Assembly: GCF_000745975.1 (NCBI RefSeq)
Contig: NZ_JQKJ01000002.1
Span: 62,001 to 126,000 of the forward strand
Source: Desulfobacter vibrioformis DSM 8776
GTDB lineage: Bacteria > Desulfobacterota > Desulfobacteria > Desulfobacterales > Desulfobacteraceae
DNA length: 64,000 bases
Direction: 5' to 3'
Positions 13,006-62,995 of this stretch are shown here, one piece after another; the stretch's first letter is position 1, and each line of letters begins with the position of its first letter. Under the pieces are notes generated by a model, which was not told the DNA's origin, searched no databases, and saw only the letters and a program-made list of their open reading frames with translations. The position numbers and the translations under genes are program-made.

Positions 13006-13072
13006 GGACTTTTGCAATTTTCACAGCAAGGGTGTATACAAAATATTTGAAACTCAACTGGAAAAAAGGGTC

Positions 13073-39931: not shown

Positions 39932-39933
39932 GG

Positions 39934-42141
39934 TCAGTTCTCAATCAGCCTTCGATAGGGTCCGTCCTGAAGCTTAAGTTCATTGTGTATCCCCCGCTGA
40001 ATCACCTTGCCCTGGTCCAATACGATAATTTCGTCACAGTCCCGGATGGTGGAAAGGCGGTGGGCCACAATCAGACAGGTGCAGCCCCGCCGTCTCAGGG
40101 CAATATCGATCTTTTTTTCAGTTTCCGGGTCCAGGGCCGAGGTTGCCTCGTCCAGAATCAGCACACTGGGATTGGTGACCAGGGCCTTGGCAATTTCCAG
40201 CCGCTGCCGCTGTCCGCCTGAAAAATTTTGCCCTCCCTCGGCCACTTCACCGTCATAGGCGCCGGCACGAACAGAGATATCCTCATGTATGGCCGCATCC
40301 TTTGCCGCCCGGACAATGTCGGCATTGGCCAGGGCCGTATTCCACATGTTCAGGTTTTCCCGGACAGAACCGGAAAACAAAAAAATATCCTGGTCAACAT
40401 AGGACAGGGAGTTGAGCATGACCGCTTTGGGAATGTTGTGGCGGGGGCTGCCGTCAAACAGGACATCGCCTTGCCAGGGCTGGTAAAGGCCGCAGATAAT
40501 TTTTGCGATGGTGGATTTGCCGGACCCGGATGTGCCCACAATGGCCACCCGGGCGCCGGGCGTAACCCTGAGATTAAAATTCTCGATCAAAGGCGGCTCC
40601 AACGGACTGTACCCAAAGGTCAAATCTTTGATGGTCAGTTCGCCGGTCAGCTTCACCTGATTTTTATCCTGCAGGGCCTGGCTGTCTGCCTGCTGGTATT
40701 GGCTGTCCTGGGCGTAGGACATAACGTCGTCCAAACGGTTCATATCTCCGACAGCCTCCTGGAACTGGCCGCCCAGGGTTACCATCTGCTGGACCGGTGC
40801 CATAAAGCAGTTCATCAGGCTCTGGAACGCCACCAGGGTCCCCATGGTCATGCCGCCGTCCATAACCCGGAGCGCACCGACCCCTAAAATGGCCGCGGTA
40901 TTGATTGAGGAGAGCAGGACCGGCACCGGAGTTAACAGGTTGGTCCACCAGAGAAGCGCCTGGTGGGCGTTGAACGCTTTGGCCTGGTATCCGGCCCAGC
41001 GATTGAAAAAATCAGATTCAGATCCCGTTGCCTTGATGGACTCAATCAGGCTGATACCGTTCATGGCCGTGCCCATAAGTTTGCCCCGCTCCTGGAGCAC
41101 ACGCTGGTTCAAATCGCTGCGCTTTCTTGACACCCAGGATAAGAACAAAAAGTTCAAACCGGCAACGGACACGCCGATACCGGTGAGGGTGATATCATAA
41201 TATGCCATCAGCACCACATAAAAAACCATATTAATCAGGCTTAAGCCGGCCGTGGCCATGTCTCCGGACAACAATACTGCCACCCGGTCATTGAGCTGGA
41301 CCCGGGTGGAAATTTCTCCTGCGTATCGCTGGTTGAAAAAGGCAATGGGCAGCCTTAAAACGTGGTGGAAAAACTGTGAAGATGTGGCCACGGCCAGCTT
41401 GATCTGCTGGCGCAAAAGCGCTGTTTCCTTGAGCCAGTTCAGCACTATCTGCAGCACCAGGCACACACCCATACCCAGAAGCATCGGCTTGAACCAATAG
41501 GTTTTTTGGGCCACCAGAATATCATCCACAAACACCTTGGAAAAAGTGGGGATAATAAATCCCGGAACCACCAGGCCAAGACCGGCCAGGACTGCAAATG
41601 CAACGCCTTGCTTCACATACCCCAGCCGCCCTTTTAGTGCACGGAGCATCCCGGGTTTATTTCCGCCTTTGCTGAATTGGGGGCCGGGTTCCAGGGACAA
41701 GACAACCCCGGTAAAGGATTTATCCAATTCCTCCAATGATATGGTTTTAGGGCCGGCTGCCGGGTCATTGATAAAAACCTTTTTGCCTTTCATCCCTTCC
41801 AAAACGATAAAATGGTTGAAATTCCAGAACAGAATCATGGGCAGGGCAAGGGTTTCCAATCCCTTGGGCTCCTTGCGGAATCCCTTGGCCACCATACCGT
41901 ATTTGCGGGCAGCCTTGAGGATGTTCACGGCTTTGGAGCCGTCACGGGACACCCCGCACTCTTCGCGCAGTTTTTCCAGGGGGACAAATCTGCCAAAATA
42001 GCCCAATACAATGCCAAGGCAGGCAGCACCACACTCCAAAGCCTCCATTTGAATAACCGTGGGGGTCCGGACCCGTTTGCGGTGCCAAAGGATGGCTGGT
42101 TTATTTTTCTTCAAACCCCACCTGCGCGTCTCCAATACCAA
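39934..42141 (-). CDS. NHLM-type peptidase-containing ABC exporter (C39 peptidase)
   Basis: 735 residues. The N-terminal C39 protease domain (about 20-150) has its Cys in MEALECGAACLGIVLGYFG and the His and Asp in FNHFIVLEG and NDPAAGP. It should cut leaders after the Gly-Gly seen in both local precursors. Transmembrane domain about 165-440; ATPase about 490-730 with GTSGSGKSTIAKIICG and FSGGQRQRLEIAKAL. The frame can open at the TTG at 42141 or at a TTG near 42114; both overlap the end of the HlyD gene, so the start is uncertain. It pairs with the peptidase-less ABC gene downstream. Confidence 0.92.
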   Translation of the reverse strand: MVLETRRWGLKKNKPAILWHRKRVRTPTVIQMEALECGAACLGIVLGYFGRFVPLEKLREECGVSRDGSKAVNILKAARKYGMVAKGFRKEPKGLETLALPMILFWNFNHFIVLEGMKGKKVFINDPAAGPKTISLEELDKSFTGVVLSLEPGPQFSKGGNKPGMLRALKGRLGYVKQGVAFAVLAGLGLVVPGFIIPTFSKVFVDDILVAQKTYWFKPMLLGMGVCLVLQIVLNWLKETALLRQQIKLAVATSSQFFHHVLRLPIAFFNQRYAGEISTRVQLNDRVAVLLSGDMATAGLSLINMVFYVVLMAYYDITLTGIGVSVAGLNFLFLSWVSRKRSDLNQRVLQERGKLMGTAMNGISLIESIKATGSESDFFNRWAGYQAKAFNAHQALLWWTNLLTPVPVLLSSINTAAILGVGALRVMDGGMTMGTLVAFQSLMNCFMAPVQQMVTLGGQFQEAVGDMNRLDDVMSYAQDSQYQQADSQALQDKNQVKLTGELTIKDLTFGYSPLEPPLIENFNLRVTPGARVAIVGTSGSGKSTIAKIICGLYQPWQGDVLFDGSPRHNIPKAVMLNSLSYVDQDIFLFSGSVRENLNMWNTALANADIVRAAKDAAIHEDISVRAGAYDGEVAEGGQNFSGGQRQRLEIAKALVTNPSVLILDEATSALDPETEKKIDIALRRRGCTCLIVAHRLSTIRDCDEIIVLDQGKVIQRGIHNELKLQDGPYRRLIEN

Positions 42142-43393
42142 AAAGTTTTTTCCTTAGAAAGGGCAGCGCCAATTCTATTGGGGGCTGGCTGCTGACAACA
42201 ACATCGGCCATGCACAATGTGCCGCTGTCAATGGTTGTATCAGGACCGCTTCCCGAGGACCACTTGTACCTGCCGGCAGTTGCACCGTCCGCCAGCAGGC
42301 CGGCGGTAACGGATATGGGGGCGCCCCCTGCAAAGAGACGGTTCACAAGGTCCTGGTTCTGGAGCACCCGGAGCATGCCTTTCTGGGAAGCCGGGAATCT
42401 GGACACCTGACGAATTTTGCCGATCATATATCCATATTCTTCTGTTTTAACGTTGGATGGACTGATCCTGGCGCTCATTCCCTCGCGCACCTTTTTGCCT
42501 TCCCCGGGTGAAAAATAAAGAAAGGCGGAAAGACATTCATGGCTTTCGCCTTCCACCTCAACACTGATGAGGGGTTCACCGGTATGAATGACCTTGCCGC
42601 TGTTGGTGTAAATTTCAAGGACCCGGCCGGTGCGGGTGCTGACAACCCGGCTTTCCAAATCCCTGGTGGCCTGGATTTCCCTGATTTTAAGCTGAACCTG
42701 GGAGATTTTGTGCTCTATGGCAAACCGTTCTTTGCGAATGGTGGCGGAAAGGTCCATTTCCTTGGCAGAAATATCGTTGAGCTGGCTCTGGTAGTCCATG
42801 ATTTCCTTCAGGACTTTCTGGTACCGGTTTTTCACATCCTGGATCACACTGCGGGTGGTGAGTTTTTTTTTATAATACGCCTGCTGGCTGGCCAGTTCCT
42901 TCTCGATATAGGCCAGGTTATCTCTGGCCCCGGCAATGGCCTTTTCAATGGTTTTGCGCTGGTTGGCCAGCGTTTTGCGCTTGAGCAGGGTGGTCTTGTC
43001 CCCAAGGGTTAAAATCATTTTTTTTTCCGACTCAAGATTTGCAAGCTGCTCACGCTCCTGCCTGAGCTGTTGATCCTGGCCGGGCAAAGACAGAGTTGCA
43101 ATCACCTGGCCTTTGGTCACAGCATCATCCACAGATACCATGATCTTTTTGACCTGGCCTGTGCCCAAAGAGACCACGTCATATATGGCGCCCTCCCTGA
43201 GCAAAATTCCCTGCCCCTGAACAGTGGTATGAATATTTCCTTTGATTCCCCAAAGAAAGGCAATGGCAATCAGTATAAAACAGCCTGCCAGGGCCATCCA
43301 CCCCATGGGACGGGTGACCGTCATCACCCGGTCCAATTGTTCCGGCGAGGAAAGCGTGTCTAATGTTTTTTTTCTGAATATCGACTGTTCCAA
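42101..43393 (-). CDS. HlyD-family secretion adaptor of the RiPP export system
   Basis: 430 residues: short cytoplasmic N-terminus, one transmembrane helix (about 30-50), lipoyl-like half-domains flanking a long coiled coil (about 105-235, rich in Gln, Glu and Lys), and a beta-barrel with ALPFLRKKLFGIGDAQVGFE at its end. This is the NHLP bacteriocin-system adaptor type, linking the ABC exporters to a TolC channel. The likely start is the TTG at 43393 with AAGGA 10 bases upstream. A decayed second copy of its N-terminal part lies at 45399-45490. Confidence 0.87.
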   Translation of the reverse strand: MEQSIFRKKTLDTLSSPEQLDRVMTVTRPMGWMALAGCFILIAIAFLWGIKGNIHTTVQGQGILLREGAIYDVVSLGTGQVKKIMVSVDDAVTKGQVIATLSLPGQDQQLRQEREQLANLESEKKMILTLGDKTTLLKRKTLANQRKTIEKAIAGARDNLAYIEKELASQQAYYKKKLTTRSVIQDVKNRYQKVLKEIMDYQSQLNDISAKEMDLSATIRKERFAIEHKISQVQLKIREIQATRDLESRVVSTRTGRVLEIYTNSGKVIHTGEPLISVEVEGESHECLSAFLYFSPGEGKKVREGMSARISPSNVKTEEYGYMIGKIRQVSRFPASQKGMLRVLQNQDLVNRLFAGGAPISVTAGLLADGATAGRYKWSSGSGPDTTIDSGTLCMADVVVSSQPPIELALPFLRKKLFGIGDAQVGFEEK

Positions 43394-43554: not shown

Positions 43555-43914
43555 TCAACCAAACAATTCAACACAAATTCTAAAACAAGAATCAATCTCC
43601 CAGCCCGTGTCCAGGCAGAAGCCACCGGCGACATCACCCAACTGCTGGTCAGTCAGTTCAACCGATTCCATACGTTTATCGAATTCTTCTTTGGTAATTT
43701 CATTGTTCAGGTGTTTATAAATCAAAGATTTCAGTTCATTATTGGACGTTGATTCGGCCTTTAACCGTAAAAGATCTTCATTGGTAAAATGAAGATTTTC
43801 AGACTCAACAAACGCTTTTCTGGATTCTTTGTCTTTACATGCAGCCACCTTATCCCGAAAGATTTTATCATTTTGTATTCTTTCCATAAATTCCCGGGCA
43901 GATTCCATGGACAT
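43555..43914 (-). CDS. RiPP precursor peptide with Nif11-type leader
   Basis: 119 residues. The leader (1-98) follows the Nif11 pattern (MESAREFMERIQNDKIFRDK, then FTNEDLLRLK) and ends in SVELTDQQLGDVAGG, a classic double-glycine site for C39 peptidases. The predicted core is 21 residues, starting FCLDTGWEIDSC and ending RICVELFG, with Cys at core positions 2, 12 and 16, Thr5, Ser11 and several acidic residues. AAGGAGAG precedes the ATG at 43914. It lies 69 bases after the radical SAM gene and before the exporter genes, so that maturase is the likely modifier. Nif11 leaders also serve LanM enzymes, so LanM cannot be excluded. Confidence 0.88.
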   Translation of the reverse strand: MSMESAREFMERIQNDKIFRDKVAACKDKESRKAFVESENLHFTNEDLLRLKAESTSNNELKSLIYKHLNNEITKEEFDKRMESVELTDQQLGDVAGGFCLDTGWEIDSCFRICVELFG

Positions 43915-43983
43915 GTCTCTCTCCTTTATGTTGATATATACTGTGTTTACGCCGGATTTTACATACGGATTATTCGTAATTTA

Positions 43984-45375
43984 CTAAAAATCCAGCATAC
44001 AAGGTTTGGGCGGTAGAACATCCTCATTAATCAACCAGGCTTTATCGCTTTCGTCAAGGCAGCTGACAACATATGCTGCCAGCTCTAATTCCCGGCGTTT
44101 GACTTGGCAGATATCTTCGGCGGGTTGGAAAACAGATTCCCACTTGCTCACGTTATCATATTTACAACCGCCGGCACAATAATACCGGGCAAAACAATCT
44201 TGGCAAAATTCATTACAAGTCACGTTTTTTTTATATTCTTCCCGATCCAGTTCTTTGTTAAACACCGTACCGATTTTATATTTTTTTTGACCTACAAATC
44301 TATGACACAAATAAATATCACCGTTGATGGAGACGCTGGCCATGCCCAAACCGGCGCCACAGGCGTAAAATTTTTTCCTGTTGTGAAAAAGGGCTAAAAT
44401 TGCAGGGTAAATCAAACTATTTGATTGGGCATTATATAACCCTTTTTTACGCCTTTCACGGATATGAATAAGCCAATTATCCGCATCTTGCTCCATTGAA
44501 CTGATGATTGGCCGCATATTTTTGTTATTGTTTTTAAAATTTTTATTCATATCAGATAACGGATCAGACGCCGTGACAATACTGATACTCTGAAATCCTA
44601 ATTGTGACAAGGCGGTTTTAATAATCCCCGGATCATTGTCGTCCATAAGTACGGCATGTACATGGGTTTGGGGCATGACCTTCAATAATTTTCTGCAATT
44701 GCGCGCAACATCTTCATAGGAGCCTTTTCCGCTTGCATAGGGACGCTGTAAGTCCTGGATATTCCGGGGGCCGTCCAGGCTCACCATGACATCCATATCA
44801 TGGGCTTTCATAAAGGCAATGCGTTCATCAGTCAAAAGTGTCGCATTGGTGGTGACCTTAAATAAAACTTGTTTGGATTTTTCTTCGGATTTTTTTTTGG
44901 CAGATGCGACGACCGTTTTCATCAGCGGGAAGTTTAGAAACGGTTCGCCGCCAAAAAATCCAATGCTGATCTGTTTCTTTTTTTCAGATTGATCCAATAA
45001 CCAGTCTATGGCCTGTAAGGCAGTGGTTTCGTCCATGTGGCCCTTTTTGCCGTATTCCCCGCCGTTACCATAACAATAAATGCATCGCAAATTGCAGGAC
45101 TGGGTCAAAAATAGAGCCACGTTCGTGATGAAAAATCCGTCCTTTAGGGGACTTGTTTTACAGGTCCCGGCTTTGCCACAGGAGAGGAGATTGAAAGATT
45201 TGAGCATCTGCTTATGTGAAAAAATGGCGTCAGGGGCGGGATTTGCCGATAGTTGGCTAAGTATGCCGGCCGTCTGTTTATCAACGGATGCGGCCTGCAT
45301 GTTGTTAATATTGATCACTAGTGATATATCTTTGTGGTTGAATTGATAAAACGGTTTCAGCGTGTATTCTGTCAC
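43984..45375 (-). CDS. Radical SAM/SPASM peptide maturase
   Basis: 463 residues from a GTG at 45375 with AAGGGG upstream. The CxxxCxxC of the radical SAM cluster is CNLRCIYC (Cys94, 98, 101). SAM-binding GGEPF follows. The C-terminal SPASM domain has CGAGLGMASVSINGDIYLC, CNEFCQDCFARYYCAGGC and a final Cys near residue 428, enough for two auxiliary 4Fe-4S clusters. Residues 1-80 fit a peptide-recognition (RRE-like) N-terminus. SPASM maturases install thioether or carbon-carbon crosslinks on RiPPs. The adjacent Nif11 precursor with three Cys and nearby Asp/Glu is the probable substrate, suggesting sactipeptide- or ranthipeptide-type chemistry. Confidence 0.9.
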   Translation of the reverse strand: MTEYTLKPFYQFNHKDISLVININNMQAASVDKQTAGILSQLSANPAPDAIFSHKQMLKSFNLLSCGKAGTCKTSPLKDGFFITNVALFLTQSCNLRCIYCYGNGGEYGKKGHMDETTALQAIDWLLDQSEKKKQISIGFFGGEPFLNFPLMKTVVASAKKKSEEKSKQVLFKVTTNATLLTDERIAFMKAHDMDVMVSLDGPRNIQDLQRPYASGKGSYEDVARNCRKLLKVMPQTHVHAVLMDDNDPGIIKTALSQLGFQSISIVTASDPLSDMNKNFKNNNKNMRPIISSMEQDADNWLIHIRERRKKGLYNAQSNSLIYPAILALFHNRKKFYACGAGLGMASVSINGDIYLCHRFVGQKKYKIGTVFNKELDREEYKKNVTCNEFCQDCFARYYCAGGCKYDNVSKWESVFQPAEDICQVKRRELELAAYVVSCLDESDKAWLINEDVLPPKPCMLDF

Positions 45376-45398
45376 AATTACGCCCCTTTGATATTGTT

Positions 45399-45490
45399 TA
45401 TGTGAGCAAAGGCCGTCCGCAACATACCATAACCGTTTTTATTTGACCCGTGCCCAAAGAAACCGCGTCATATATATGACGCCCTCCCTT
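45399..45490 (-). pseudogene. Decayed fragment of a second HlyD-type adaptor gene
   Basis: On the minus strand this stretch reads IYDAVSLGTGQIKTVMV, almost the same as IYDVVSLGTGQVKKIMV inside the intact adaptor (coding bases about 43147-43200). Upstream it continues as REGV before an AT-repeat expansion (ATATATAT) shifts the frame; downstream it runs into a stop. The DNA similarity over about 45 bases is also direct. It is a relic of a lost or recombined adaptor copy in the 332-base gap between the radical SAM and TolC genes, which otherwise holds the 36-bp repeat and their promoters. Confidence 0.75.
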
Positions 45491-45556
45491 TTTAGCTGCC
45501 TTACTCCTGAGCTTCTGTCACAGAAAACAAGAAATTGTTAACCTCCTTTCTTCTTG

Positions 45557-45592
45557 TTTCCAGTCTATAGTTTCTGCGGCTCTGCCGCCTTA
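45557..45592. repeat. 36-bp interspersed repeat, copy 2 (inverted)
   Basis: Reverse complement of the element at 26471-26506 with one mismatch (CTATAG here, CTAGAG there). It contains the same GCGGC/GCCGC hairpin. It lies next to the HlyD relic, at the divergence point of the RiPP locus. Confidence 0.7.
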
Positions 45593-45707
45593 GCTGCCCT
45601 TCATGCCAAAAAAAATCTTTGTTTGTCAACACGAAATGTATCAAAACCCTTTTGCTCAGTTTAATATTATTGTACCAATAGCGTGTCATTAAAAATAAAG
45701 AAAACCA

Positions 45708-47024
45708 ATGGAGAACCATGTGAAGAACGCTTCCGTGTGGCAACTGCTGTTGCTGTTTTTGTCAATGTCCTTGCCCCCCCGGGTTACAGCCGGGCCAACA
45801 CTGTCTTTGGGAGATATGTGCCGCATGGCGGACCGGAGCGCAGAGATTATTCTCAGTGCAAAAGATGATTGCGGGATCGCCATTGAGGACCGGAAAAGGG
45901 CTTTGGCCAATCTTCTCCCCTGGATTCAGGCGTCCGGTCAGCAGGTCAGCTACAGGAACAATGATGCCTCCTCCCCCAACACCAGGACCCTGGGCATAAA
46001 TATAGGCCAGTCCTATACCCTGAATGGCCGGGAGTTCACCTACCTTGCCATGGCCGGAAAAAAAGTGGAACTGACCGGGTACGCCCTTGAGTCTGTCAGG
46101 TCTGATTTCCTTTACAATGTTGCCAACGCCTTTGTTTCCATTCTTAAAGCCAAACAGCGCGAACAGATTGCCCTGGCCGAGATCAACCGCCTGAAAATTC
46201 ATCTTTCCCATGTTCAAGAGCAGCTTGCTGCAGGAGACGTAACCCGGACCGATCTTCACAGGGCCATTGCCGAGCTGGCCAAGGCCCGTACAAGTCAGGT
46301 GTCCGCCCATACCCAAAAAGCGCAGAACCGGGCGGACCTGGTTCGCATGACCGGGGTGGACCGGGCCTTCAGCCTTGATGAACGGGGCCTGGCCGATATA
46401 AACCGGAAAAGGTTTGATCCGGAGGAGATCAAGGCAGATGCCCTCAAAACCCGGGCAGATATACGCCAGGCAAAAAAGGCGCTGGCAATCGCCCTGGATC
46501 AGATTGATTATGAAAAGGGTAACTTCTGGCCCGCTTTAAGCGTTGAAACCGGATACAGGGAAACAGATGTTTCATATTCTCTGACGGCGGGGCGAAACTA
46601 TTCCTACGATACGGAGGAGGCGTATATCTGTGCGGATCTGTCTTTTAACATTTATGCGGGCGGCTATCACAGGGCTGCCCGGCAAAAGGCCTTGCTTGAG
46701 TACAAAAAGGCCCGGCAGGACCTTCAGGTTCTGGAAAAACAGGTGATATATGAGGCTGAAGCGGCATTCTTAAATTTCACAGCTAAAAAGGCAATTCTTG
46801 TTAACCTTGAACAGGAACTTGCAGCAGCCGGGGAAAACTTTAATGCCGTTGAGGAACAATTCAGATTCGGCATGAAGGACAGCATGGATATCATGGACGC
46901 CAACACCCTTCTGGTCCAGGCCGAGCAGAACATGGCGGACGCAGGTTATGATCTGTCCCTTTCCGTTCTGGCAATCCTTTATGCAAAAGGTCGGCTGACC
47001 GCCTGTTTGCTGGTTTTGCCTTGA
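45708..47024 (+). CDS. TolC-family outer membrane channel of the RiPP export system
   Basis: 438 residues with a signal peptide (about 1-28, cleavage near VTAG). Two TolC-like halves follow: helices around NVANAFVSILKAKQREQIAL and a beta-strand pair near SYTLNGREFTYLAMAGKKVE in the first half; the second half includes AEAAFLNFTAKKAILVNLEQ and the ending LSLSVLAILYAKGRLT. It is distinct from the two efflux channels at 4-6.8 kb. It is the first gene of the plus-strand arm, 202 bases before the NHLP precursor, and completes an inner-membrane ABC, adaptor, outer-membrane channel chain. Confidence 0.85.
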   Translation: MENHVKNASVWQLLLLFLSMSLPPRVTAGPTLSLGDMCRMADRSAEIILSAKDDCGIAIEDRKRALANLLPWIQASGQQVSYRNNDASSPNTRTLGINIGQSYTLNGREFTYLAMAGKKVELTGYALESVRSDFLYNVANAFVSILKAKQREQIALAEINRLKIHLSHVQEQLAAGDVTRTDLHRAIAELAKARTSQVSAHTQKAQNRADLVRMTGVDRAFSLDERGLADINRKRFDPEEIKADALKTRADIRQAKKALAIALDQIDYEKGNFWPALSVETGYRETDVSYSLTAGRNYSYDTEEAYICADLSFNIYAGGYHRAARQKALLEYKKARQDLQVLEKQVIYEAEAAFLNFTAKKAILVNLEQELAAAGENFNAVEEQFRFGMKDSMDIMDANTLLVQAEQNMADAGYDLSLSVLAILYAKGRLTACLLVLP

Positions 47025-47183
47025 CCCGGGAGGTACATATTGGAAACCTGTTCCCCATTTCGAGTACTTGATACTCTTTTTTTTCTCTGCTATATCTCGA
47101 TTGAACAAAAAGAACGTACTATCCTGATGCAAGCGGTATCTTGCTCCCGGGCTGTGCTGACAGCTTAAAAAACTGCCAGGGTA

Positions 47184-47201
47184 GTGTTAACCACCTAACA
47201 C
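47184..47201. promoter_or_regulatory. Palindrome upstream of the NHLP precursor gene
   Basis: GTGTTA-ACCACC-TAACAC, a perfect 6-bp inverted repeat with a 6-base spacer, ends 15 bases before the AAGGAG ribosome site at 47217-47222. It could be an operator or an mRNA hairpin. It sits in the 202-base gap between the TolC and precursor genes; no clear sigma-70 hexamers were found there. Confidence 0.4.
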
Positions 47202-47226
47202 GAATTCAACTTCATAAGGAGTCGTA

Positions 47227-47601
47227 ATGATTAAAAATGAGATGATGGAAAAAATCATTCGAAAAGCCTGGGATGATGATGATTTCAGGCAGCAATTGTT
47301 GAATGATCCCAAACAGGCTCTGAAGCTGGCATTTGGTGTTGATATTCCTGATTTTGTAAATATTACCATCCATGAGAGCAAACCGTGTGATTTGCATTTT
47401 ATCCTTCCGGAGAACCCTGAAAAAATGATCAATGGCGAATTATCTGACGAGGAGCTGGAAATGGTTGCCGGCGGCAAAAGTGCGCAGCGTCAGGAATGCT
47501 TCCAGGAGAATATCACTGATAACGGACCGGTGGGAGGATTCGTCAATACCATTTTGGTTGCGGTGGGCAATACCTGGGCCTACCAGGCAATGAATGATTA
47601 A
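47227..47601 (+). CDS. RiPP precursor peptide with NHLP-type leader
   Basis: 124 residues. The 83-residue leader has the nitrile-hydratase-alpha-like pattern (KIIRKAWDDDDFRQQLLNDP, then ALKLAFGVDIPDFVNITIHE) and ends GELSDEELEMVAGG. The 41-residue core begins KSAQRQECFQENITDNG and ends NTWAYQAMND. It has one Cys (core 8), one Ser (2), three Thr (14, 25, 33), one Lys (1) and one Arg (5). With LanM in the same operon, at most one thioether ring can form from this Cys, plus dehydrated Ser/Thr. AAGGAG is 4 bases before the ATG. Its stop overlaps the ketosynthase start by 8 bases. Confidence 0.9.
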   Translation: MIKNEMMEKIIRKAWDDDDFRQQLLNDPKQALKLAFGVDIPDFVNITIHESKPCDLHFILPENPEKMINGELSDEELEMVAGGKSAQRQECFQENITDNGPVGGFVNTILVAVGNTWAYQAMND

Positions 47602-48850
47602 TACTAAAAGAGTCGTCATCACAGGCACAGGCATTATATCTCCCATCGGCAATACCCTATCGGAATTCAGAAAAAATTTGCTTAATGGGAAATCGGGTAT
47701 CAAAGAACGTAAAATACCTTTTCTGGGAAGTATTCCGGCGGGTGCCTGTGACTATGATCCATTAAAATATCAAAACAGAAAAGAACTGAGAAGAGGAACA
47801 AGAGCAGGGTCCATAGCGATATATTGTGCCCGGGAAGCGCTTCTTGACGCCGGATTGGATATCTGCCGGACCGACACGTCACGGCTGGGCGTCTACATAG
47901 GGATTACCGAGCATGGCATGGTGGAGACGACGGACACGTTTCGTAAAATTGCGGAAAACGATTATGATCTGCAATTTTTGTCCCATCATTTAAATTCCCG
48001 GATTGTATCCAATAATCCTGCCGGAGAAGTATCCTTGAACCTGAAAATAAAAGGGCCTCATTACTGCGTGGGGGGGGCCTGTGCCGCCGGGAATCTGGGG
48101 GTTATCCAGGGGTACCAGATGATTCTTTTGGGGGATGTTGATATTGCTGTCGCCGGAGGCGTGTCGGAAAGTATCCATTCTTTTATTATCTTTTCAGCGT
48201 TTAAAAACCAGATGGCACTGGGTTCCCATAAGGATCCCGAAAAGGTGAGCAGACCTTTTGATAAAAACAGGAACGGGATTGTCATTTCAGAAGGAGGAAC
48301 CCTTTTTGTGCTGGAGACATTGGAAAATGCACAAAAAAGGGGGGCTGAGAAAATCTATGGCGAAATTATCGGATGCGCCGTCTGCTCAGACGCTTCTGAT
48401 CCGGTCGTACCCAGTGCAAAAGGCCAGGCCGCCTGTATGCAGCTGGCCCTTGAACGGGCCGGATTGAAATCCGCGGATATTGATATTATTAATACCCATG
48501 CGACGTCAACGCCTGTGGGCGATATTCAGGAGATAAACGCCATCAAAAAAGTTTTTCCCGATCTGAAAACGACCTTTATTAATAATACCAAAGGGTGCAC
48601 CGGACATACAATGGGAGCGGCGGGTGCCATGGAGCTTGCGGGCAATCTGCCCTCTTTTAGCGACGGGATGGTTCATCCCGCCATAAATATTGATACGCTG
48701 GATCCTGAATGCGCCATGGAAAATCTGATAGCGAATAAAAAAGCGCCTAAAAAACATATCCGTTATATTTTAAATAACAGTTTCGGTATGTTAGGGATTA
48801 ACGCCTCTGTTGTTGTAAAAAAGATTGATTCCGGAGAGGATGCCCCATGA
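47594..48850 (+). CDS. Dedicated beta-ketoacyl-ACP synthase (KAS II/FabF-like)
   Basis: 418 residues. The active-site Cys163 is in GGACAAGN, with His302 (NTHATSTPVGD) and His338 (NTKGCTGHTMGA) completing the Cys-His-His triad, so this is an active condensing enzyme and not a chain-length factor. It condenses malonyl-ACP with an acyl primer. It overlaps the NHLP precursor gene and the ACP gene, placing acyl-chain assembly in the peptide operon. The nucleophile loop (ACAAGN) differs from the usual primary FabF pattern (ACATGAH-like), fitting a specialised enzyme. No acyltransferase gene is present, so malonyl loading presumably uses the cell's FabD. Confidence 0.9.
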   Translation: MINTKRVVITGTGIISPIGNTLSEFRKNLLNGKSGIKERKIPFLGSIPAGACDYDPLKYQNRKELRRGTRAGSIAIYCAREALLDAGLDICRTDTSRLGVYIGITEHGMVETTDTFRKIAENDYDLQFLSHHLNSRIVSNNPAGEVSLNLKIKGPHYCVGGACAAGNLGVIQGYQMILLGDVDIAVAGGVSESIHSFIIFSAFKNQMALGSHKDPEKVSRPFDKNRNGIVISEGGTLFVLETLENAQKRGAEKIYGEIIGCAVCSDASDPVVPSAKGQAACMQLALERAGLKSADIDIINTHATSTPVGDIQEINAIKKVFPDLKTTFINNTKGCTGHTMGAAGAMELAGNLPSFSDGMVHPAINIDTLDPECAMENLIANKKAPKKHIRYILNNSFGMLGINASVVVKKIDSGEDAP

Positions 48851-49095
48851 AAAAAGAGGAAATCAGAAACTTATTGATTGAGATCTTTAAAGAGATCGCA
48901 CCGGATGAAGACTTTTCCGGCCTTGACGACGCGGTCAGCATAAAGGACCAGATTAATTTTGATTCAATGGATTTTCTGGATATCATCATGTCCCTTCGCC
49001 GGGAATGCGCCATAAAGATCCCGGAAGAGGACTATCCCAACTTTGTAACTGTGGAAAGCTCAGTCCAGTATATTGAGTCCAGGTTGAACACTTAA
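48847..49095 (+). CDS. Dedicated acyl carrier protein
   Basis: 82 residues, acidic, four-helix ACP pattern. The phosphopantetheine attachment Ser40 is in NFDSMDFLDIIMSL (family form DSLD/DSMD). The start overlaps the ketosynthase stop by 4 bases (ATGA), and the next gene begins 1 base after its stop. It would carry the growing acyl chain for the ketosynthase, reductase and dehydratase alongside and present it to the GNAT. No phosphopantetheinyl transferase gene is in the window. Confidence 0.9.
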   Translation: MKKEEIRNLLIEIFKEIAPDEDFSGLDDAVSIKDQINFDSMDFLDIIMSLRRECAIKIPEEDYPNFVTVESSVQYIESRLNT

Positions 49096-49096
49096 T

Positions 49097-49840
49097 ATGA
49101 AGTTAGATTTTGATTTCAACAAAAAACTGGTAATGGTTACCGGCGGCACAAAAGGAATCGGCAGAGCGGTTGCCGAATTATTTTTAAGACACGGCGCAAG
49201 GGTCATTGCCACCTATTCAAAAGACCATGGGGCCGCTCAAAAAATGAGGGAAGAAAGTCGTCATCAAGATCTATGCATTGTTAAATGTGATGTTGCCTCT
49301 TACCGGGATGTGGAAGCTTTCTACGGGGAACTGGATACAAGGGATGATGCCTTATCCGTACTGGTGAATAACGCGGGAACCAGGAAAGATTGCGTTCTTG
49401 GGATGATGAAGCCCCGGGACTGGCAATCCGTAATTGATGTGAACCTTACCGGCGTTTACAACATGAGCAAATTCGCCGTTTTAAACATGATGCGCCATCG
49501 GTATGGAAGAATTATTTCCATCACATCTGCCGGCAGGCATTTGGGTTTTCCCGGCCAGACCAATTATGCTGCTTCAAAAGCGGGAATGGTTGCCTTTACC
49601 AAGTGTCTTGCCAGAGAAACAGCCAAACGCAATATTACGGTAAATTGTGTTTCGCCGGGATTTATTGACACCGGGTTTATTGAAGACCTGCCCGCGGATC
49701 TAAAAAAAGAGTATCGCAAAAGGATCGCAATGGGACGGTTTGGCCTTATGGATGAGGTGGCTTTCGTTGTTTTATTCCTGGCCTCCGAATATGCTTCCTA
49801 TATTACGGGATCCGTTTATGATGTGGACGGGGGGCTTTAA
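49097..49840 (+). CDS. 3-oxoacyl-ACP reductase (FabG-like SDR)
   Basis: 247 residues. Cofactor loop VTGGTKGIGRAVAELF, NNAGTRKD, and catalytic Ser144, Tyr157 and Lys161 in SITSAGRHLGFPG and TNYAASKAG. The ending YITGSVYDVDGGL is typical of FabG. It reduces the 3-oxoacyl-ACP made by the ketosynthase to the 3-hydroxyacyl form. It sits between the ACP and dehydratase genes with gaps of 1 and 5 bases, so it is surely part of the dedicated acyl-chain module. Confidence 0.9.
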   Translation: MKLDFDFNKKLVMVTGGTKGIGRAVAELFLRHGARVIATYSKDHGAAQKMREESRHQDLCIVKCDVASYRDVEAFYGELDTRDDALSVLVNNAGTRKDCVLGMMKPRDWQSVIDVNLTGVYNMSKFAVLNMMRHRYGRIISITSAGRHLGFPGQTNYAASKAGMVAFTKCLARETAKRNITVNCVSPGFIDTGFIEDLPADLKKEYRKRIAMGRFGLMDEVAFVVLFLASEYASYITGSVYDVDGGL

Positions 49841-49845
49841 ATAAC

Positions 49846-50277
49846 ATGGGGGATACAATCAATTATCTGCCCCAGAGAGCGCCTTTCCTTTTTATTGATT
49901 CGATCCTTTATCTGGGCAAGGACAGGGTGACAGCCACCTATCGCGTAAAGACGAATGAATATTTTTTTAAGGGGCATTTTCCGGATAAGCCGGTTATGCC
50001 CGGCGTGATACTATTGGAAATGATGTTCCAGGCCGGGGCTGTCTATGTTTCCCGGTTCAACCGCCTTGGGAATGGTGACATTCCAGTCATCGCCAGGGTT
50101 GAGAATGCCAAATTTAAAAAAATGGTAAAACCGGGAGAAAGCCTGTTGATTGAAGTGAGTTTCATGGAAAAAATGAACAATGCCTTTTTTTTCAAAGGAA
50201 AAATACAAGCCTGCGGACAAGTGGTCGCCTCTTGTGATTTTAGAACGGCTGTTGTTCCCGGGATTGATGCCCGATAG
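49846..50277 (+). CDS. FabZ-like 3-hydroxyacyl-ACP dehydratase
   Basis: 143 residues, single hotdog fold. The catalytic His44 and Glu58 are in FKGHFPDKPVMPGVILLEMM, the FabZ/FabA-type motif, preceded by LPQRAPFLFIDSILYLG. It would dehydrate 3-hydroxyacyl-ACP to the trans-2-enoyl form. No enoyl reductase gene accompanies it, so the final chain may remain unsaturated or hydroxylated, or use the cell's own enoyl reductase. It starts 5 bases after the reductase gene. Confidence 0.88.
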   Translation: MGDTINYLPQRAPFLFIDSILYLGKDRVTATYRVKTNEYFFKGHFPDKPVMPGVILLEMMFQAGAVYVSRFNRLGNGDIPVIARVENAKFKKMVKPGESLLIEVSFMEKMNNAFFFKGKIQACGQVVASCDFRTAVVPGIDAR

Positions 50278-50297
50278 CACACAAGGAATCGAACACC

Positions 50298-51200
50298 ATG
50301 TACGAGTATTGCCTTCTGAACAGGGATCTGCTGCCCCTGTTTCAAAAAATGACCTATCCGGTCTATTGGAAAATGATAAAAAATTTTCCGGACACAGATG
50401 ATATGGATGTTGTCGCCTATGGGTGCATGTGTTTTGGGGTAGCGGCAGGACTGGCAATCGCCTTTTTGAACCATGTGGAAAAAAAGGCCCGGTTGTTAAG
50501 CCTTTTTACGGATCCGGAACATAGGAACCGCGGAATCGCAGCCACATTATTATCAAAGCTTAATGAAAACCTGAAAGATAGGCATGTAAAAGAGGTGTAT
50601 ACTGTATTTGAAAGGGGTAGAAATTTTTCGGATCAGGTAGAAAATAGTTTAAAAAAATGCGGATTTTCCGATTTTAAAATCCGGGCCCATATCGGGCGCG
50701 GCCATCTGGAATTGATGCGGAAAGCGGCCTGGTGGCAAAAAGCGTTCCCCCTGACCCGTTTTTCCATTATTCCCTGGAAGGATATCAGCCGGGAAAAGAA
50801 ACAGCGGTTACGCTGCCCGGAAAATGAAACGCCCTGGTACCCCCCGAACCTTTCTCCTTTTAATGATCCCCATATACGTGAACCCCTGAATAGTTTCGGG
50901 CTGATATATCAATCAGAAATCGCAGGCTGGTCAATAACCCATCGAATTGCCCCTGATACAATCCGCTATACCTGTCTTTTTGTCCGGGAAGAGTTTCAGG
51001 CCTACGGGATCGCCATACCATTGATAGCCGCGTCAATAAAAAAACATATTGAATTCCGGGAAGAATTGGGACTGGGGAAGTTCACCTTTGTCGTATATCC
51101 TGAGAACGGCAACATGCTAAGGTTCGTAAACCGGTATTTCCGGCCCTATCTGGATCAGTTGAATGAATCCGTGGCCGCAAGAAAAGTTTTTATTCAATAA
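50298..51200 (+). CDS. Tandem-GNAT acyltransferase, probable peptide fatty-acyl transferase
   Basis: 300 residues with two GNAT units. The first has a canonical acyl-CoA/phosphopantetheine loop (LFTDPEHRNRGIAATLLSKL, about 71-90). The second is degenerate (LFVREEFQAYGIAIPLIAAS, about 229-248) and followed by FTFVVYPENGNMLRFVNRYF. It lies directly after the ACP-linked fatty-acid genes and before LanM. In selidamides and goadvionins, bimodular or related GNATs acylate a RiPP with a fatty or polyketide chain. By analogy it would move the ACP-bound acyl group to the NHLP core, whose only Lys is core residue 1. Acetylation of another target cannot be excluded. Confidence 0.8.
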   Translation: MYEYCLLNRDLLPLFQKMTYPVYWKMIKNFPDTDDMDVVAYGCMCFGVAAGLAIAFLNHVEKKARLLSLFTDPEHRNRGIAATLLSKLNENLKDRHVKEVYTVFERGRNFSDQVENSLKKCGFSDFKIRAHIGRGHLELMRKAAWWQKAFPLTRFSIIPWKDISREKKQRLRCPENETPWYPPNLSPFNDPHIREPLNSFGLIYQSEIAGWSITHRIAPDTIRYTCLFVREEFQAYGIAIPLIAASIKKHIEFREELGLGKFTFVVYPENGNMLRFVNRYFRPYLDQLNESVAARKVFIQ

Positions 51201-51217
51201 ATGCAAGGTTAAAAAAA

Positions 51218-51274
51218 ATGAATGAAAAGAATCCTGAAATGCCGGTTGGAATGGCAGGACATACGCCTTTTTAA
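51218..51274 (+). CDS. 18-codon short ORF in frame with the gene at 51293
   Basis: Encodes MNEKNPEMPVGMAGHTPF and then TAA, with AAGG just upstream of the ATG. The same frame resumes after the stop and reaches the ATG at 51293, which has its own GGAAG site. It may be a leader peptide, or the severed N-terminus of the downstream protein after a nonsense change. Coding status is unproven. Confidence 0.3.
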   Translation: MNEKNPEMPVGMAGHTPF

Positions 51275-51292
51275 GGGCTGGAAGATATCGGT

Positions 51293-52399
51293 ATGCTGAA
51301 ATGGAATCTTTCAGATACAATTCATCTTCTGGAAAATAATCATTGCTTTCATATTTTTTCAAAGGAAAATTTTCAATTATTCAATGATGGTTTTTCTCGT
51401 TTTGAATCCTTAGCCTGCTATCGCTATATTTTTGAAACCTATTTAAAACGGCAGGAAAAATTCGCTGATGTCTCACTGTGTTTTGTCCGTTCGGAAAAAA
51501 AAAGATTCATCAAGGACTATCTGGAAATGGATCGGGCATTATCATTGAAGGACAATGAGATCTGGATAATGCTGTATCATTTTTTCCGCCTGTGGAATAA
51601 AGCAAAATCCATTGAGGATGAACACATTTTAAATATCTGGCTGGAATTTGATTTTAGCCGGTTGATGAAAACAAAACTGCCGGAGCCCTGTCTGTTTTTT
51701 TATCCGTTGAAAAATTTTAACCATGGCCAAGAAAAAAAGATCAGACAGATTGAGCAGCAATACAGCCGGTTGATTACTCCGATCCTGGAGAATTTTTCAG
51801 ACAGCTATACCCGGCCTCCAATTAAAGATACGATTAAAAAATGTATCAGATATTCCTCTGCTGATGCGGCGTTTTTTCAAATTGGCGTCATGCTTGGAAG
51901 AGCAGACAGCCCCTTGAGAATTTGTCTGGAGCGGTTTTCCCCACAGGATGTTACAGCCTTATTGGAACATATGGAATGGGAAGGGGATTTTGATCAAATA
52001 GACAGCATACTGGAAATGGGCGTTGAATATATTAATCCTCATTTTGCCCTTGATATGGATGTTGGGACCCGGCTTCATAAAAAAATTGGTTTTGAGTTTT
52101 CCTTTAAGGAAAAATTCCTGAACCCCAATAAAATCGGCTCCTTTCTAAACCATCTTTGCGAAAGATCCTTGTGTACTGAGGAAAAAAAAGAGACGCTTCT
52201 AAACTGGACCGGTTATTCCTGGGAGAAAGATGGACAGGTGCTCATTGTTCGGACCATCAATCATTTTAAATTTGTGTATTCTGAAGATGATCCCATTGAA
52301 GTTAAAGCCTATCTTGGATTAACCGCCAATCCGGTCAGGGATAAATATTGGGCTGAATCCGCGAACTGCGGCGGTCTTCAGGCAGAGGCCCGGCGTTGA
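51293..52399 (+). CDS. Unrecognised LanM-adjacent protein
   Basis: 368 residues, no signal peptide or membrane helix, mixed alpha/beta and rich in aromatic and charged residues. I cannot assign it to a named family. The N-terminal 140 residues contain helix-rich stretches (SRFESLACYRYIFETYLKRQ), and the end includes YWAESANCGG. GGAAG lies 8 bases before the ATG at 51293. It overlaps the LanM start by 4 bases, so the two proteins are made together and may act together. Uncharacterised proteins of this size recur beside LanM genes in NHLP-type clusters, as far as I recall. Possible roles are leader recognition, a partner of LanM, or a further tailoring enzyme. Confidence 0.6.
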   Translation: MLKWNLSDTIHLLENNHCFHIFSKENFQLFNDGFSRFESLACYRYIFETYLKRQEKFADVSLCFVRSEKKRFIKDYLEMDRALSLKDNEIWIMLYHFFRLWNKAKSIEDEHILNIWLEFDFSRLMKTKLPEPCLFFYPLKNFNHGQEKKIRQIEQQYSRLITPILENFSDSYTRPPIKDTIKKCIRYSSADAAFFQIGVMLGRADSPLRICLERFSPQDVTALLEHMEWEGDFDQIDSILEMGVEYINPHFALDMDVGTRLHKKIGFEFSFKEKFLNPNKIGSFLNHLCERSLCTEEKKETLLNWTGYSWEKDGQVLIVRTINHFKFVYSEDDPIEVKAYLGLTANPVRDKYWAESANCGGLQAEARR

Positions 52400-55300
52400 A
52401 TTTGGACCGGAATCTGATATCAATCCTTGAACGCTGTGTTTTCCCGGATGAGTGGGAAAAATATCCCGACACTCAAATCAAAAGGGACCAAAAGGCCATA
52501 CATGAGGTTAATACCTGTATTCACCGCTGGGAAAAGATATACCGGATTTTTTCGAGCCAGGCTGTTTTTGAAGAGCGGCTGAATAAAATCGGATTAAATC
52601 GTTCCGGTTTGTCCGATTATCTATCCTTGCGTTCTCTTATGACGGATAATCTGCCAAAGTGGGCCCTTTTCTTTCTTCAGGTAATGACGCATACCAGACC
52701 TGCGAATGAAAAAACAGGCTCACCCCTTAAGTTCACTGCTGAAAGATTAGTGAAATTTTCCGGGACTGAAAAGGATCTTTACGGTGTTAATCTCAATAAA
52801 ACCCCTCTGTTTCCCCATTTTTTGAATGTTTTTATAGAAAAAGCCCTTAGCAGGCTGGCATCGGCCTATGATGTCGGCGATGGCGTCAGAGACATTTTAT
52901 CGCGTTTTTTATTATTAATGCTGTCTGATATCGTGAGAAGATCAATCGCCTATGATGTCAAGGAATGTTCCCGCAAACAATTGTTAAAAGGTGAAACCCC
53001 GCACCGGCGGTATCAGTTCTACGCAACGAAAATATTGGGGACCAATAGAGGCCGGAAAGATTTTTTTAACCGTTATCCAATGGCCGCCAGATTATTATCT
53101 GTCAGATCATTGGGGATTATCAACAGTGTGGGTGAAATGCTGGGAAGGTTTCATAAAGACAGAAAGCGGATTATCGAATCAATATTCAATAAAAAAGAGA
53201 CAGGACCATTAATCGCGATTTATCCCGGGCTTTCTGATTTTCATGGCCATAGCAGGTCGGTAATGCTGTTGGCATTTGCCTCGGGTCAGAAACTGGTTTA
53301 TAAACCCCGCGGGTTTCAAACCGATGAGATCTTCAACATTTTTGTCGGCCTGATGAATACAAACAAAGATATGTTAAGCCTGAAGCCGCCCAGGTTTCTG
53401 GACGGCAGGGCCTATGGCTGGATGGAATATATTGAAAAAAAGCCGTGCCGGCATGATGACGATATCAGCAGATTTTACCAACGGCATGGCCAGCTCCTTT
53501 TTCTTATTCATTTAACGGCGGGATATGATTTTCATCATGACAACTTTATCCCCCATGGAGAGTGTCCCGTACCCGTTGATCTTGAAGGAATTTTCCGGGA
53601 AGAGGTTTTGCGGCTGTCCCCTGAATTTCACAATTGTCCCGACGCGTTTCTCCCCCTGGAACTTGCGCCCTTGAATTCAGGGAATCTGCCTTTGTGGTAT
53701 AAAAATGAAAACGGCAGGGCGTTTGTAACCAGTGGTATCGGCGGGACCTGCAAACGAAAGATTAAAATCAGAAGGCCTGCATGGATCAATGTCGCAACGG
53801 ACCAGTTGTCACTTGATTACAAAATGACGGAGATTGAATTTACCGATAACATGCCGGAACTCGATGGTGAAAAAATTGCTGTCACCCATTATGTTAAAGA
53901 CGTAACAAGAGGTTACACAAATGCTTTTCGTTTCTTTTATGACAATAAGAAACAGATTGCGGACAGCATTAAAAGAAAAAGGGCTCTTTTCGAGTCAAAG
54001 ACCAGGAAGGTAATCCGGGATACGAAACTATATCAAAAAATTCTGTTCTGGGCCCACAGCCCGGATCTTTTAAGTTCCGGAAGCGCTTTTTATGTGGCCC
54101 TGGAGAGGATCTGCCAATTCAATTTCAGCCCGGATCTATATGAATTCCTGGATCAGGAAAAGCAACACCTCAGAAATAATGATGTCCCCGTATTTTTCCA
54201 GCAAATAAATTTTGATGCTTTTCTTAAAAGATTAGAAAGCTTAGATACCGCTCGATTGGATTGGCATGTAAAACTGGTTGGCACCGCTTTAAAGATGACA
54301 CAGATCAAACCTGGGGTTTCAGATCATTGCGGGGAAAAAGAGGCATGCTTTCTTGAAACAGCAAAACAAATAGCCGATTCAATCCTTAAAGTCTCTTTCA
54401 CTACGGAGCAGGGAAATATGTGGCTTGACCTGAAACCTTCTGCCCCTGGGTCTGACTATTTACGCTATTGTATGTCCGATTTTTCGTTGTATCGGGGCGT
54501 TACCGGTGTTGCTGTCTTTCTGGCAAACCTTTTTTTTGTCACCAAAGATCTGAAGTATAAAACCTGTGCCCTGGGTTTTTTGAAATACGCGGAAAGTGTC
54601 CTGGGTTTTACAGATAAACATAAAATTCCCGTCAGGCGGTTTTCTGTTTTTCATGGATATTTTTCATTTATATACGCCTTGACTGAATGCGGCAGGCTTT
54701 TTGGGGATACAGGTCTTGTGGACACAGCCTTGCGGTACGCCTTGATGGTCAATGAGAATGATATTGTTAAAGAAAAGCGTATAGACTTCACTGACGGCCT
54801 TTCAGGTGTTTTGCTGTCTCTTTTGAAACTGTATGGTTTGACTGCGGATAAATCATTATTGAATCTGGCTGTCCTGATGGGAAACCATATTTTAACATTT
54901 CAAAATTTGCGAAAAGGCGGATTTCATATTACCCAGGTGAATAAAGAACTGGCCGGCATGGCACACGGGTCTTCGGGGATCGCTTACGCCTTGTTGAAAT
55001 TATATGAAATCCGCCAGGATAAAATCTTTCTTAACGCCATTCAAAAAAGCCTGGAGTTTGAACGCAGTATTTTTTGCCCGTTTGAAAATGACTGGCCTGA
55101 TTTACAAACCAGGGCGGGTAAAAAGACATTCATGACCGGATGGTGTTCCGGAGCCCCGGGGATCGGGCTTGAAAGGCTGGCGCTGCTGAATATTGCCGGT
55201 GGGGATAAGAGAATAAAAGAAGATATTGACCATGCTGTTCTAGCTGCCAAAAGGAATATGAATCATGATAAGTTCCATGCCTGCTGCGGAGACATGGGAA

Positions 55301-55542
55301 ATATATATTTTCTAAATGAAGCGGGTAAAATCCTCAACAAAGAGGATTACCTCCGGTGTGCAAGACAAAGTGCCCAAAAAATCATCCGGTTTCATCAGGA
55401 GCATGGATACTGGAAACTGCTTTCCATCAATGAGGGAAATATCATACCCGGTCTGATGAATGGCGTATCCGGGCTTGGATTGACCCTGTTAAGGTTAGCA
55501 GAATTCCGGGATATCACACCATTTTTGACATTATACGGATGA
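52396..55542 (+). CDS. lanM: LanM-type class II lanthipeptide synthetase (CCG zinc site)
   Basis: 1048 residues. The N-terminal dehydratase (DUF4135, about 150-660) has a kinase-like catalytic loop in GYDFHHDNF (Asp378, His380, Asn383) and VDLEG (395-399). It phosphorylates and eliminates Ser/Thr to make dehydro-residues. The C-terminal LanC-like cyclase (about 695-1045) holds the zinc ligands Cys917 (WCSGAPG) and Cys963-Cys964 (CCGDMGN). Three Cys with a CCG motif replace the usual Cys-His, as in ProcM-like synthetases with relaxed substrate range. Start is a TTG at 52396 in a TTGA overlap, with GAGG 7 bases upstream. It probably modifies the NHLP precursor. Confidence 0.93.
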   Translation: MNLDRNLISILERCVFPDEWEKYPDTQIKRDQKAIHEVNTCIHRWEKIYRIFSSQAVFEERLNKIGLNRSGLSDYLSLRSLMTDNLPKWALFFLQVMTHTRPANEKTGSPLKFTAERLVKFSGTEKDLYGVNLNKTPLFPHFLNVFIEKALSRLASAYDVGDGVRDILSRFLLLMLSDIVRRSIAYDVKECSRKQLLKGETPHRRYQFYATKILGTNRGRKDFFNRYPMAARLLSVRSLGIINSVGEMLGRFHKDRKRIIESIFNKKETGPLIAIYPGLSDFHGHSRSVMLLAFASGQKLVYKPRGFQTDEIFNIFVGLMNTNKDMLSLKPPRFLDGRAYGWMEYIEKKPCRHDDDISRFYQRHGQLLFLIHLTAGYDFHHDNFIPHGECPVPVDLEGIFREEVLRLSPEFHNCPDAFLPLELAPLNSGNLPLWYKNENGRAFVTSGIGGTCKRKIKIRRPAWINVATDQLSLDYKMTEIEFTDNMPELDGEKIAVTHYVKDVTRGYTNAFRFFYDNKKQIADSIKRKRALFESKTRKVIRDTKLYQKILFWAHSPDLLSSGSAFYVALERICQFNFSPDLYEFLDQEKQHLRNNDVPVFFQQINFDAFLKRLESLDTARLDWHVKLVGTALKMTQIKPGVSDHCGEKEACFLETAKQIADSILKVSFTTEQGNMWLDLKPSAPGSDYLRYCMSDFSLYRGVTGVAVFLANLFFVTKDLKYKTCALGFLKYAESVLGFTDKHKIPVRRFSVFHGYFSFIYALTECGRLFGDTGLVDTALRYALMVNENDIVKEKRIDFTDGLSGVLLSLLKLYGLTADKSLLNLAVLMGNHILTFQNLRKGGFHITQVNKELAGMAHGSSGIAYALLKLYEIRQDKIFLNAIQKSLEFERSIFCPFENDWPDLQTRAGKKTFMTGWCSGAPGIGLERLALLNIAGGDKRIKEDIDHAVLAAKRNMNHDKFHACCGDMGNIYFLNEAGKILNKEDYLRCARQSAQKIIRFHQEHGYWKLLSINEGNIIPGLMNGVSGLGLTLLRLAEFRDITPFLTLYG

Positions 55543-59322: not shown

Positions 59323-59326
59323 GGCA

Positions 59327-61063: not shown

Positions 61064-61083
61064 CTTTAATCCTCCAGGTCTTT

Positions 61084-62856: not shown

Positions 62857-62995
62857 AAAAATCATCCATTCATGATTGGTTTAAAATTAAAAATAAATGT
62901 CATTGGAAATATGTTGATCGTTCCCGGCCCTTATTGTCAGGCAAAGGCAGGGCGCCCTTGGAAAAAATCAAATTTGTAAAAAGAACACATCTGAG

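Follow-up and report, generated by a model that had tools for sequence, protein, structure and literature searches.

Lipidated lanthipeptides have been described in several systems that lie close to the locus studied here. In the nostolysamides and selidamides (NpuA-NpuM-NpuN; phaeornamide), as far as the available excerpts of two accounts go (PMC13060382, PMC9505594), an NHLP-type leader, a LanM with three Cys zinc ligands, a tandem GNAT and a Lys at core position 1 come together. In NpuA, the side chain of Lys1 is the site that the tandem GNAT NpuN acylates, and neither Lys3 nor Lys24 can take its place (PMC13060382, excerpt). In Moorena producens, MppC is reported to be an ABBA-type lanthipeptide prenyltransferase that geranylates Trp82 of MppE (PMC12715784, excerpt). 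In lipolanthines, goadvionins and lipoavitides, the lanthipeptide carries a lipid that comes from dedicated fatty-acid or polyketide chemistry. Here we analyzed 64,000 nt of Desulfobacter vibrioformis DSM 8776 (contig NZ_JQKJ01000002.1, positions 62,001–126,000; this whole stretch is called the window and all its coordinates are counted from its first letter) and describe a plus-strand operon whose product, with a probability of roughly 0.6, is a class II lanthipeptide lipidated twice.

The window locus shares with the nostolysamide and selidamide systems the leader type, the LanM type, the tandem GNAT and the core Lys1. It differs from them in that phaeornamide is said to take its fatty acid from primary metabolism, whereas the window has dedicated acyl genes, and in that the nostolysamides carry four (methyl)lanthionines, whereas the window core has one Cys (PMC13060382, PMC9505594, excerpts). 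The same excerpts mention neither a set of ketosynthase (KS), acyl carrier protein (ACP), ketoreductase (KR) and dehydratase (DH) nor a prenyltransferase, and the window has both. With the mpp system it shares a class II LanM, a prenyltransferase of the same family and a core Trp; mpp differs in its Nif11 leader, its arginases and its halogenase, and the excerpted accounts list no acyl genes for it (PMC12715784, PMC11791876). The lipolanthines, goadvionins and lipoavitides differ in being class III products with an N-terminal lipid, according to the excerpted sources (PMC13060382, PMC9505594). Acylated lanthipeptides and prenylated lanthipeptides are each already known. In the literature searched we found no lanthipeptide that is both acylated and prenylated, and no class II lanthipeptide with its own fatty-acid enzymes.

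The operon follows the gene of a TolC-type outer-membrane channel (45708–47024, plus strand, PF02321) and runs in the order NHLP precursor, KS, ACP, KR, DH, tandem GNAT, prenyltransferase homologue and LanM. Its genes are tightly packed: the precursor overlaps the KS gene by 8 nt, the KS gene overlaps the ACP gene by 4 nt and the prenyltransferase homologue overlaps the LanM gene by 4 nt, which are the overlaps that an earlier note on this DNA had claimed. The remaining genes are separated by 1 nt (ACP/KR), 5 nt (KR/DH), 20 nt (DH/GNAT) and, at the largest gap in the operon, 92 nt (GNAT/prenyltransferase homologue). All gene types named in the earlier note were recovered through Pfam or NCBIfam matches, motifs and a model of the tandem GNAT. 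Judged by their sequences, the plus-strand genes form, with near certainty, a lanthipeptide cluster. Our reading of it is based on gene identities, motifs, overlaps, the predicted folds of the prenyltransferase and the GNAT, and homology to the mpp locus.

The precursor (47227–47601, plus strand, 124 aa) has an NHLP leader at residues 3–83 (TIGR03793, 85.9 bits, cut-off 50.9), and the sequence AAGGAG sits upstream of its ATG. The core, residues 84–124 after Gly-Gly, reads KSAQRQECFQENITDNGPVGGFVNTILVAVGNTWAYQAMND. It holds one Lys (K1), one Cys (C8), one Trp (W34), one Tyr (Y36), Ser2 and three Thr, and contains a second Gly-Gly. One Cys, one Ser and three Thr behind a leader are what a class II precursor would offer. 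The LanM gene (52396–55542, plus strand) starts with TTG, and its product matches TIGR03897 with 645.3 bits (cut-off 304) from residue 141 to 1035, covering profile positions 5–930 of 932 and therefore both the dehydratase and the cyclase halves. It carries WCSGAPG at 916 and CCG at 963, and the earlier note's assignment to the Cys-Cys-Gly zinc-ligand type stands. Models of class III and class IV synthetases gave it only 68.2 of 575 and 88 of 650 bits, so that it does not qualify as a class III synthetase (LanKC). We take the motif residues in LanM, and those in KS, ACP, KR and DH mentioned below, to be catalytic.

The gene between GNAT and LanM (51293–52399, plus strand, 368 aa) had been labeled as unknown. 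Its product has no Pfam or NCBIfam match; sequence searches of the PDB with the protein and with its family profile returned chance-level matches only, PADLOC gave one chance-level match (E 0.028) and PHROGs none. An AlphaFold model built from three sequences (the window protein and its relatives in loci L093 and L104) contains five beta-beta-alpha-alpha repeats (predicted template modeling score 0.68). Foldseek found 51 PDB matches at E ≤ 0.001, and all 50 of those listed are aromatic or peptide prenyltransferases, with E 7e-7 for AmbP1. In VIA-align all 50 listed matches are ABBA prenyltransferases, with Z scores of 17.4–13.3 over 251–316 residues at a root-mean-square deviation of 3.9–4.5 Å. 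The ABBA barrel is thus recognized on a structure predicted with moderate confidence. Across 27 family sequences, twelve columns that are conserved in 85% or more carry a charged residue or His in the window protein (E48, D59, E118, D120, R203, R209, D256, E268, K298, H324, K326 and K338), and 10 of the 12 map to predicted barrel strands.

Homology to the mpp enzyme was reached through the published MppE core (PMC11791876, excerpt), which was searched as a DNA pattern in 20 genomes together with a reversed control. One genome matched, and the control gave zero matches. Around the match lie a LanM gene, two UPF0489 genes, a precursor whose sequence ends with the core, a Trp halogenase and a gene with a squalene-hopene-cyclase-like part, a gene set that agrees with the published mpp cluster. 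The gene that directly follows the precursor gives 9e-92 with the family profile of the window protein, even though it is not among the profile's sequences; it likewise has no Pfam or NCBIfam match. Its product has Phe340 as published and Leu at 336, where the published MppC has Trp, and on this substitution it is taken from its sequence as an orthologue or variant of MppC. Aligned with it over 319 columns, the window protein shows 23.5% identity at E 3e-22 and is a distant homologue of a lanthipeptide prenyltransferase. These data indicate that the gene, missed as such by the earlier note, encodes an ABBA-type prenyltransferase homologue of the MppC family: from sequence and model, membership in the family is very likely and prenyl transfer is predicted. 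An identity as a 2-oxoglutarate (2OG)-Fe(II) oxygenase, taken from the annotation of a plasmid homologue, was rejected, because the domain behind that label is C-terminal (residues 471–584) and lies outside the homologous part.

The family profile (A1) matched 17 of the 47 genomes behind 50 LanM loci (two genomes are shared between loci) and 2 of 6 further genomes. A family open reading frame (ORF) was found in 21 of 23 stretches, L174 and L175 being dropped as profile matches with no ORF picked. In this sample, which is biased to LanM-bearing genomes, 12 of the 21 stretches hold LanM, 6 hold precursors of ribosomally synthesized and post-translationally modified peptides (RiPPs) or lasso-type genes, and 3 hold none of the RiPP genes probed. 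Four plasmid records match the family, and the three examined all hold LanM with Nif11 or NHLP precursors; in one of the family's plasmid members, from Pseudanabaena (L012:8857-10650), the domain is fused to a C-terminal 2OG-Fe(II) oxygenase (PF13640) with LanM and Nif11 precursors near. The L104 stretch (2212-13048) holds a family gene, two methyltransferase-like genes, LanM and a Nif11 precursor, together with genes that by eye look like TfuA and YcaO. Within the order of the window organism, members at L010:5184-6461 and L011:9775-10896 lie in lasso-type clusters with transglutaminase-like, HPr-kinase-like, flavin adenine dinucleotide oxidoreductase, nucleotidyltransferase and (by eye) asparagine-synthase-like genes, and the gene content suggests prenylated lasso peptides.

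On balance we favor the NHLP peptide as the substrate of the window prenyltransferase. It is less probable, and in our judgment unlikely, that the lanthipeptide is acylated only and that the prenyltransferase modifies the peptide of the minus-strand Nif11 precursor (43555–43914, TIGR03798, 45.1 bits, cut-off 32.3) together with the radical S-adenosylmethionine (SAM)/SPASM maturase encoded next to it (43984–45375, minus strand, TIGR04064, 535.3 bits, cut-off 518.7). The Nif11 core, FCLDTGWEIDSCFRICVELFG, does contain a Trp, and such an arrangement occurs elsewhere: at L176:8674-11731 a family prenyltransferase gene has as its neighbors a Nif11 precursor and an enzyme that scores 623.7 bits with TIGR04064, a possible source of a prenylated radical-SAM peptide by its gene content, and at L168 and L186 family prenyltransferases lie near other radical SAM and Nif11 genes. 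The window prenyltransferase and that of L176 may form a pair in the tree, so that the Nif11 peptide could be the substrate of the former; support for the pairing is weak (84/73) and the branches are long. Against this, the window gene overlaps LanM by 4 nt within the plus-strand operon, away from the radical SAM gene, and the family is more often found with LanM (12 of the 21 stretches, with the bias noted above).

A comparison set of LanM loci was built from 184 pattern matches, 128 of which were confirmed; the best 80 loci of named genomes were kept, at 25–29% identity to the window LanM. The loci span 4.3–23.2 kb, 46 of them at least 20 kb, so that some neighboring genes lie out of sight. 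The tandem GNAT of the window (50298–51200, plus strand, 300 aa, PF00583) has homologues in the stretches around 7 of the 80. Pfam detects its first domain only; an AlphaFold model from 8 sequences (predicted local distance difference test (pLDDT) score 85.8) has two GNAT domains, and tandem GNATs rank best among its PDB matches, which bears out the tandem GNAT proposed earlier. The top identity is 33%, to the GNAT of the cyanobacterial LanM-linked locus L099, and tree support near the window protein is weak. One homologue (L008) is accompanied by a Nif11 precursor and two NHLM-like exporters, and another, on a Mesorhizobium plasmid, by Nif11 and radical SAM genes. At E ≤ 1e-15 the GNAT profile picked out 3 of 395 genomes in the phylum; apart from the window's own, the two matches lie within 670–680 aa proteins. 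A looser search in 145 relatives gave three matches, in the own genome, in G048 (the L008 genome) and, weakly, in G026. LanM and GNAT relatives were absent from viral contigs. An arginase that would make ornithine was also considered and rejected, since neither the window nor the ORFs from the 80 LanM loci gave a homologue.

Core position 1 beside the window GNAT and its nearest relatives is K in the window, K in L084 (after Gly-Ala), R in L080 and R in L099; it is K or R in 5 of 57 precursors from LanM loci that lack this GNAT. This comparison was picked post hoc, after inspection of the data, and a second, opposite-strand precursor of L080, whose core begins with Gly, was excluded as non-adjacent. 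As in selidamide clusters, a GNAT with the tandem fold shares an operon with precursor and LanM, NpuN being likened to it by description, and by analogy acyl transfer to Lys1, the sole Lys of the core, is predicted. The acyl group could instead be placed on the N-terminus that removal of the leader exposes, as in the class III lipolanthines and goadvionins, and N-terminally acylated ribosomal peptides have been reported with non-modular fatty acid synthases (cited in the excerpt of PMC13060382). We consider this quite improbable: the window encodes LanM and not LanKC as its synthetase, its GNAT belongs to the tandem type seen in LanM loci, and the tandem GNAT NpuN acylates a Lys1 side chain (PMC13060382, excerpt).

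The acyl-chain genes start with a divergent FabF-like KS (47594–48850, plus strand, 418 aa) that scores 326 bits with TIGR03150, below the cut-off of 493.75, and carries the Cys, His and Lys/His motifs. It has 14 further matches in its own genome, the best at 34% identity, and among the matches listed from 194 genomes of the order none exceeds 40% identity; for this reason the sequence identifies it as an extra, divergent paralogue. The ACP (48847–49095, PF00550) has its Ser in DSMDF, the FabG-like KR (49097–49840, PF13561/PF00106; TIGR01830, 265.4 bits, below the cut-off of 297.75) holds the Tyr-Lys motif and the FabZ-like DH (49846–50277, PF07977; NF000582, 113.5 bits, cut-off 113) holds the His motif, all on the plus strand. 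The acyl module had earlier been called complete: KS, ACP, KR and DH are indeed present, and the operon has no gene for an enoyl reductase, a loading acyltransferase, a loading KS or a phosphopantetheinyl transferase, so that the set is incomplete. A housekeeping role of the set is unlikely, as the genome has other KS genes (KS being the gene checked). A separate cluster of the same genome (L140, C3:222000-241500) holds three KS-like genes and other acyl-type genes; we presume it to be a locus of the aryl-polyene type.

It is highly improbable that the acyl genes serve to make some lipid or polyene unconnected with the peptide and overlap their neighbors only incidentally, as the missing enoyl reductase and loading enzymes and the absence of such a set from the other LanM loci examined might suggest, since the KS gene begins inside the precursor gene and GNAT, prenyltransferase and LanM follow at gaps of at most 92 nt. 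The lanthipeptide is likely acylated from a dedicated acyl supply. With the precursor/KS overlap, the GNAT homologues at 7 of the 80 LanM loci and the Lys at core position 1, the lipidated RiPP proposed in the earlier note is still the best reading, as a class II product.

We infer the following route for the doubly lipidated lanthipeptide. LanM would dehydrate Ser2 and/or Thr residues and close one thioether ring on the sole Cys, C8. KS, ACP, KR and DH would build an acyl chain on ACP, which may remain unsaturated or hydroxylated, with malonyl loading and perhaps enoyl reduction borrowed from primary metabolism. The tandem GNAT would transfer the chain to the Lys1 side chain and the prenyltransferase would add a prenyl group to Trp34, or to Tyr36. 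The peptidase-bearing NHLM exporter would then cleave after Gly-Gly, with export through HlyD and TolC. The order of the steps, the sites, the donors and the joint action on one precursor are those we propose. That the product is exactly one peptide with one lanthionine ring, with Lys1 acylated by way of the dedicated type II synthase and with Trp34 prenylated, is about evenly balanced.

Several observations weigh against a doubly lipidated product. The LanM query matched one of the 395 phylum genomes, the window's own, and none of the 394 others. The KS, ACP, KR and DH set was found at none of the 80 LanM loci, and a GNAT together with a prenyltransferase at none of them either; L100 is the lone LanM locus with a KS, about 7.5 kb from LanM. 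The operon lacks the loading and enoyl-reduction genes named above. The prenyltransferase model has a pLDDT of 63.8 from three input sequences, identity to the mpp enzyme is low, and in the alignment to that enzyme the window protein lacks the loop bearing Phe340, which is reported to contact the leader in MppC (PMC12715784, excerpt), so that its own leader contact must differ. The possible tree pairing with L176 points to the Nif11 peptide. Three family stretches (L169, L170 and L177) hold no RiPP gene among those probed. At the more distant GNAT loci L054, L087 and L092, 0 of 10 precursors begin with Lys or Arg, and the GNAT locus L085 yielded no precursor. GNATs of the family also form part of proteins of 664–680 aa whose neighborhoods showed neither a RiPP precursor nor a LanM or radical SAM gene.

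In the proteins of the last kind (L192:7428-9470 and L193:9335-11347, both in the window's order, and L016:7795-9789) the tandem GNAT sits behind a second part, annotated as TIGR03032 in L016 only. Those of L192 and L193 adjoin several look-alike proteins of about 840–930 aa. By their sequences they appear to represent an acyltransferase context outside RiPPs.

The gene combination is a singleton among the genomes searched. The earlier note held that its reading would fail if the acyl genes were not conserved with LanM and precursor in related genomes. Taken literally, this is the outcome obtained, with the acyl genes at 0 of the 80 LanM loci, where the best LanM identity is 29%. The result is absence of evidence more than refutation, because the searches brought up no close relative of LanM on which to judge conservation.

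Besides the Nif11 and radical SAM genes, the minus strand encodes a pair of NHLM exporters with an HlyD adaptor. The exporters and the adaptor, which the earlier note had included in a region of 43555–55542, do exist and lie outside it, at 37025–43393: an NHLM permease/ATPase (ABC2, 37025–39931, TIGR03797, 896.3 bits, cut-off 709.4), an NHLM peptidase/permease/ATPase (ABC1, 39934–42141, TIGR03796, 1091.4 bits, cut-off 853.3) and the NHLM HlyD-type adaptor (42101–43393, TIGR03794, 344.1 bits, cut-off 156.2), all on the minus strand. Comparable sets occur without LanM. L139, a 12-kb locus in another genome of the order, has a relative of the window's radical SAM enzyme (TIGR04064, 401.8 bits, under the cut-off of 518.7), accompanied by an NHLP precursor, an HlyD adaptor and a pair of NHLM exporters. 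L134, a 17-kb locus in a genome of the same family, has an NHLP precursor, HlyD, ABC1 and ABC2, its exporters being the closest-looking to the window's set (ABC1 1203, ABC2 1217 and HlyD 554 bits). Because these sets occur without LanM, the Nif11 precursor and the radical SAM enzyme are probably a second peptide system using the same exporters, as far as gene content can tell, and the notion that all genes serve one product gives way to this. The exporters have a GC content of 53.5% and TolC 52.7%, with about 51% in the rest of the window, as against 39–46% in the Nif11, radical SAM and NHLP-to-LanM genes, a difference compatible with later acquisition of the peptide genes. Farther along, at 58195–62865, asparagine-synthase-like, GNAT/ATP-grasp-like and peptidase-like genes were seen by eye, a set that we take to resemble N-acetylglutaminylglutamine amide osmolyte genes.

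If the operon makes the doubly lipidated peptide, its single core Lys, Cys and Trp would offer a genetically simple system for ordering two lipidations and a ring on one leader, and for testing whether a GNAT draws directly on dedicated acyl-ACP. A protein family without a Pfam or NCBIfam match, found at LanM, radical SAM and lasso-type loci, would become tied to peptide prenylation.

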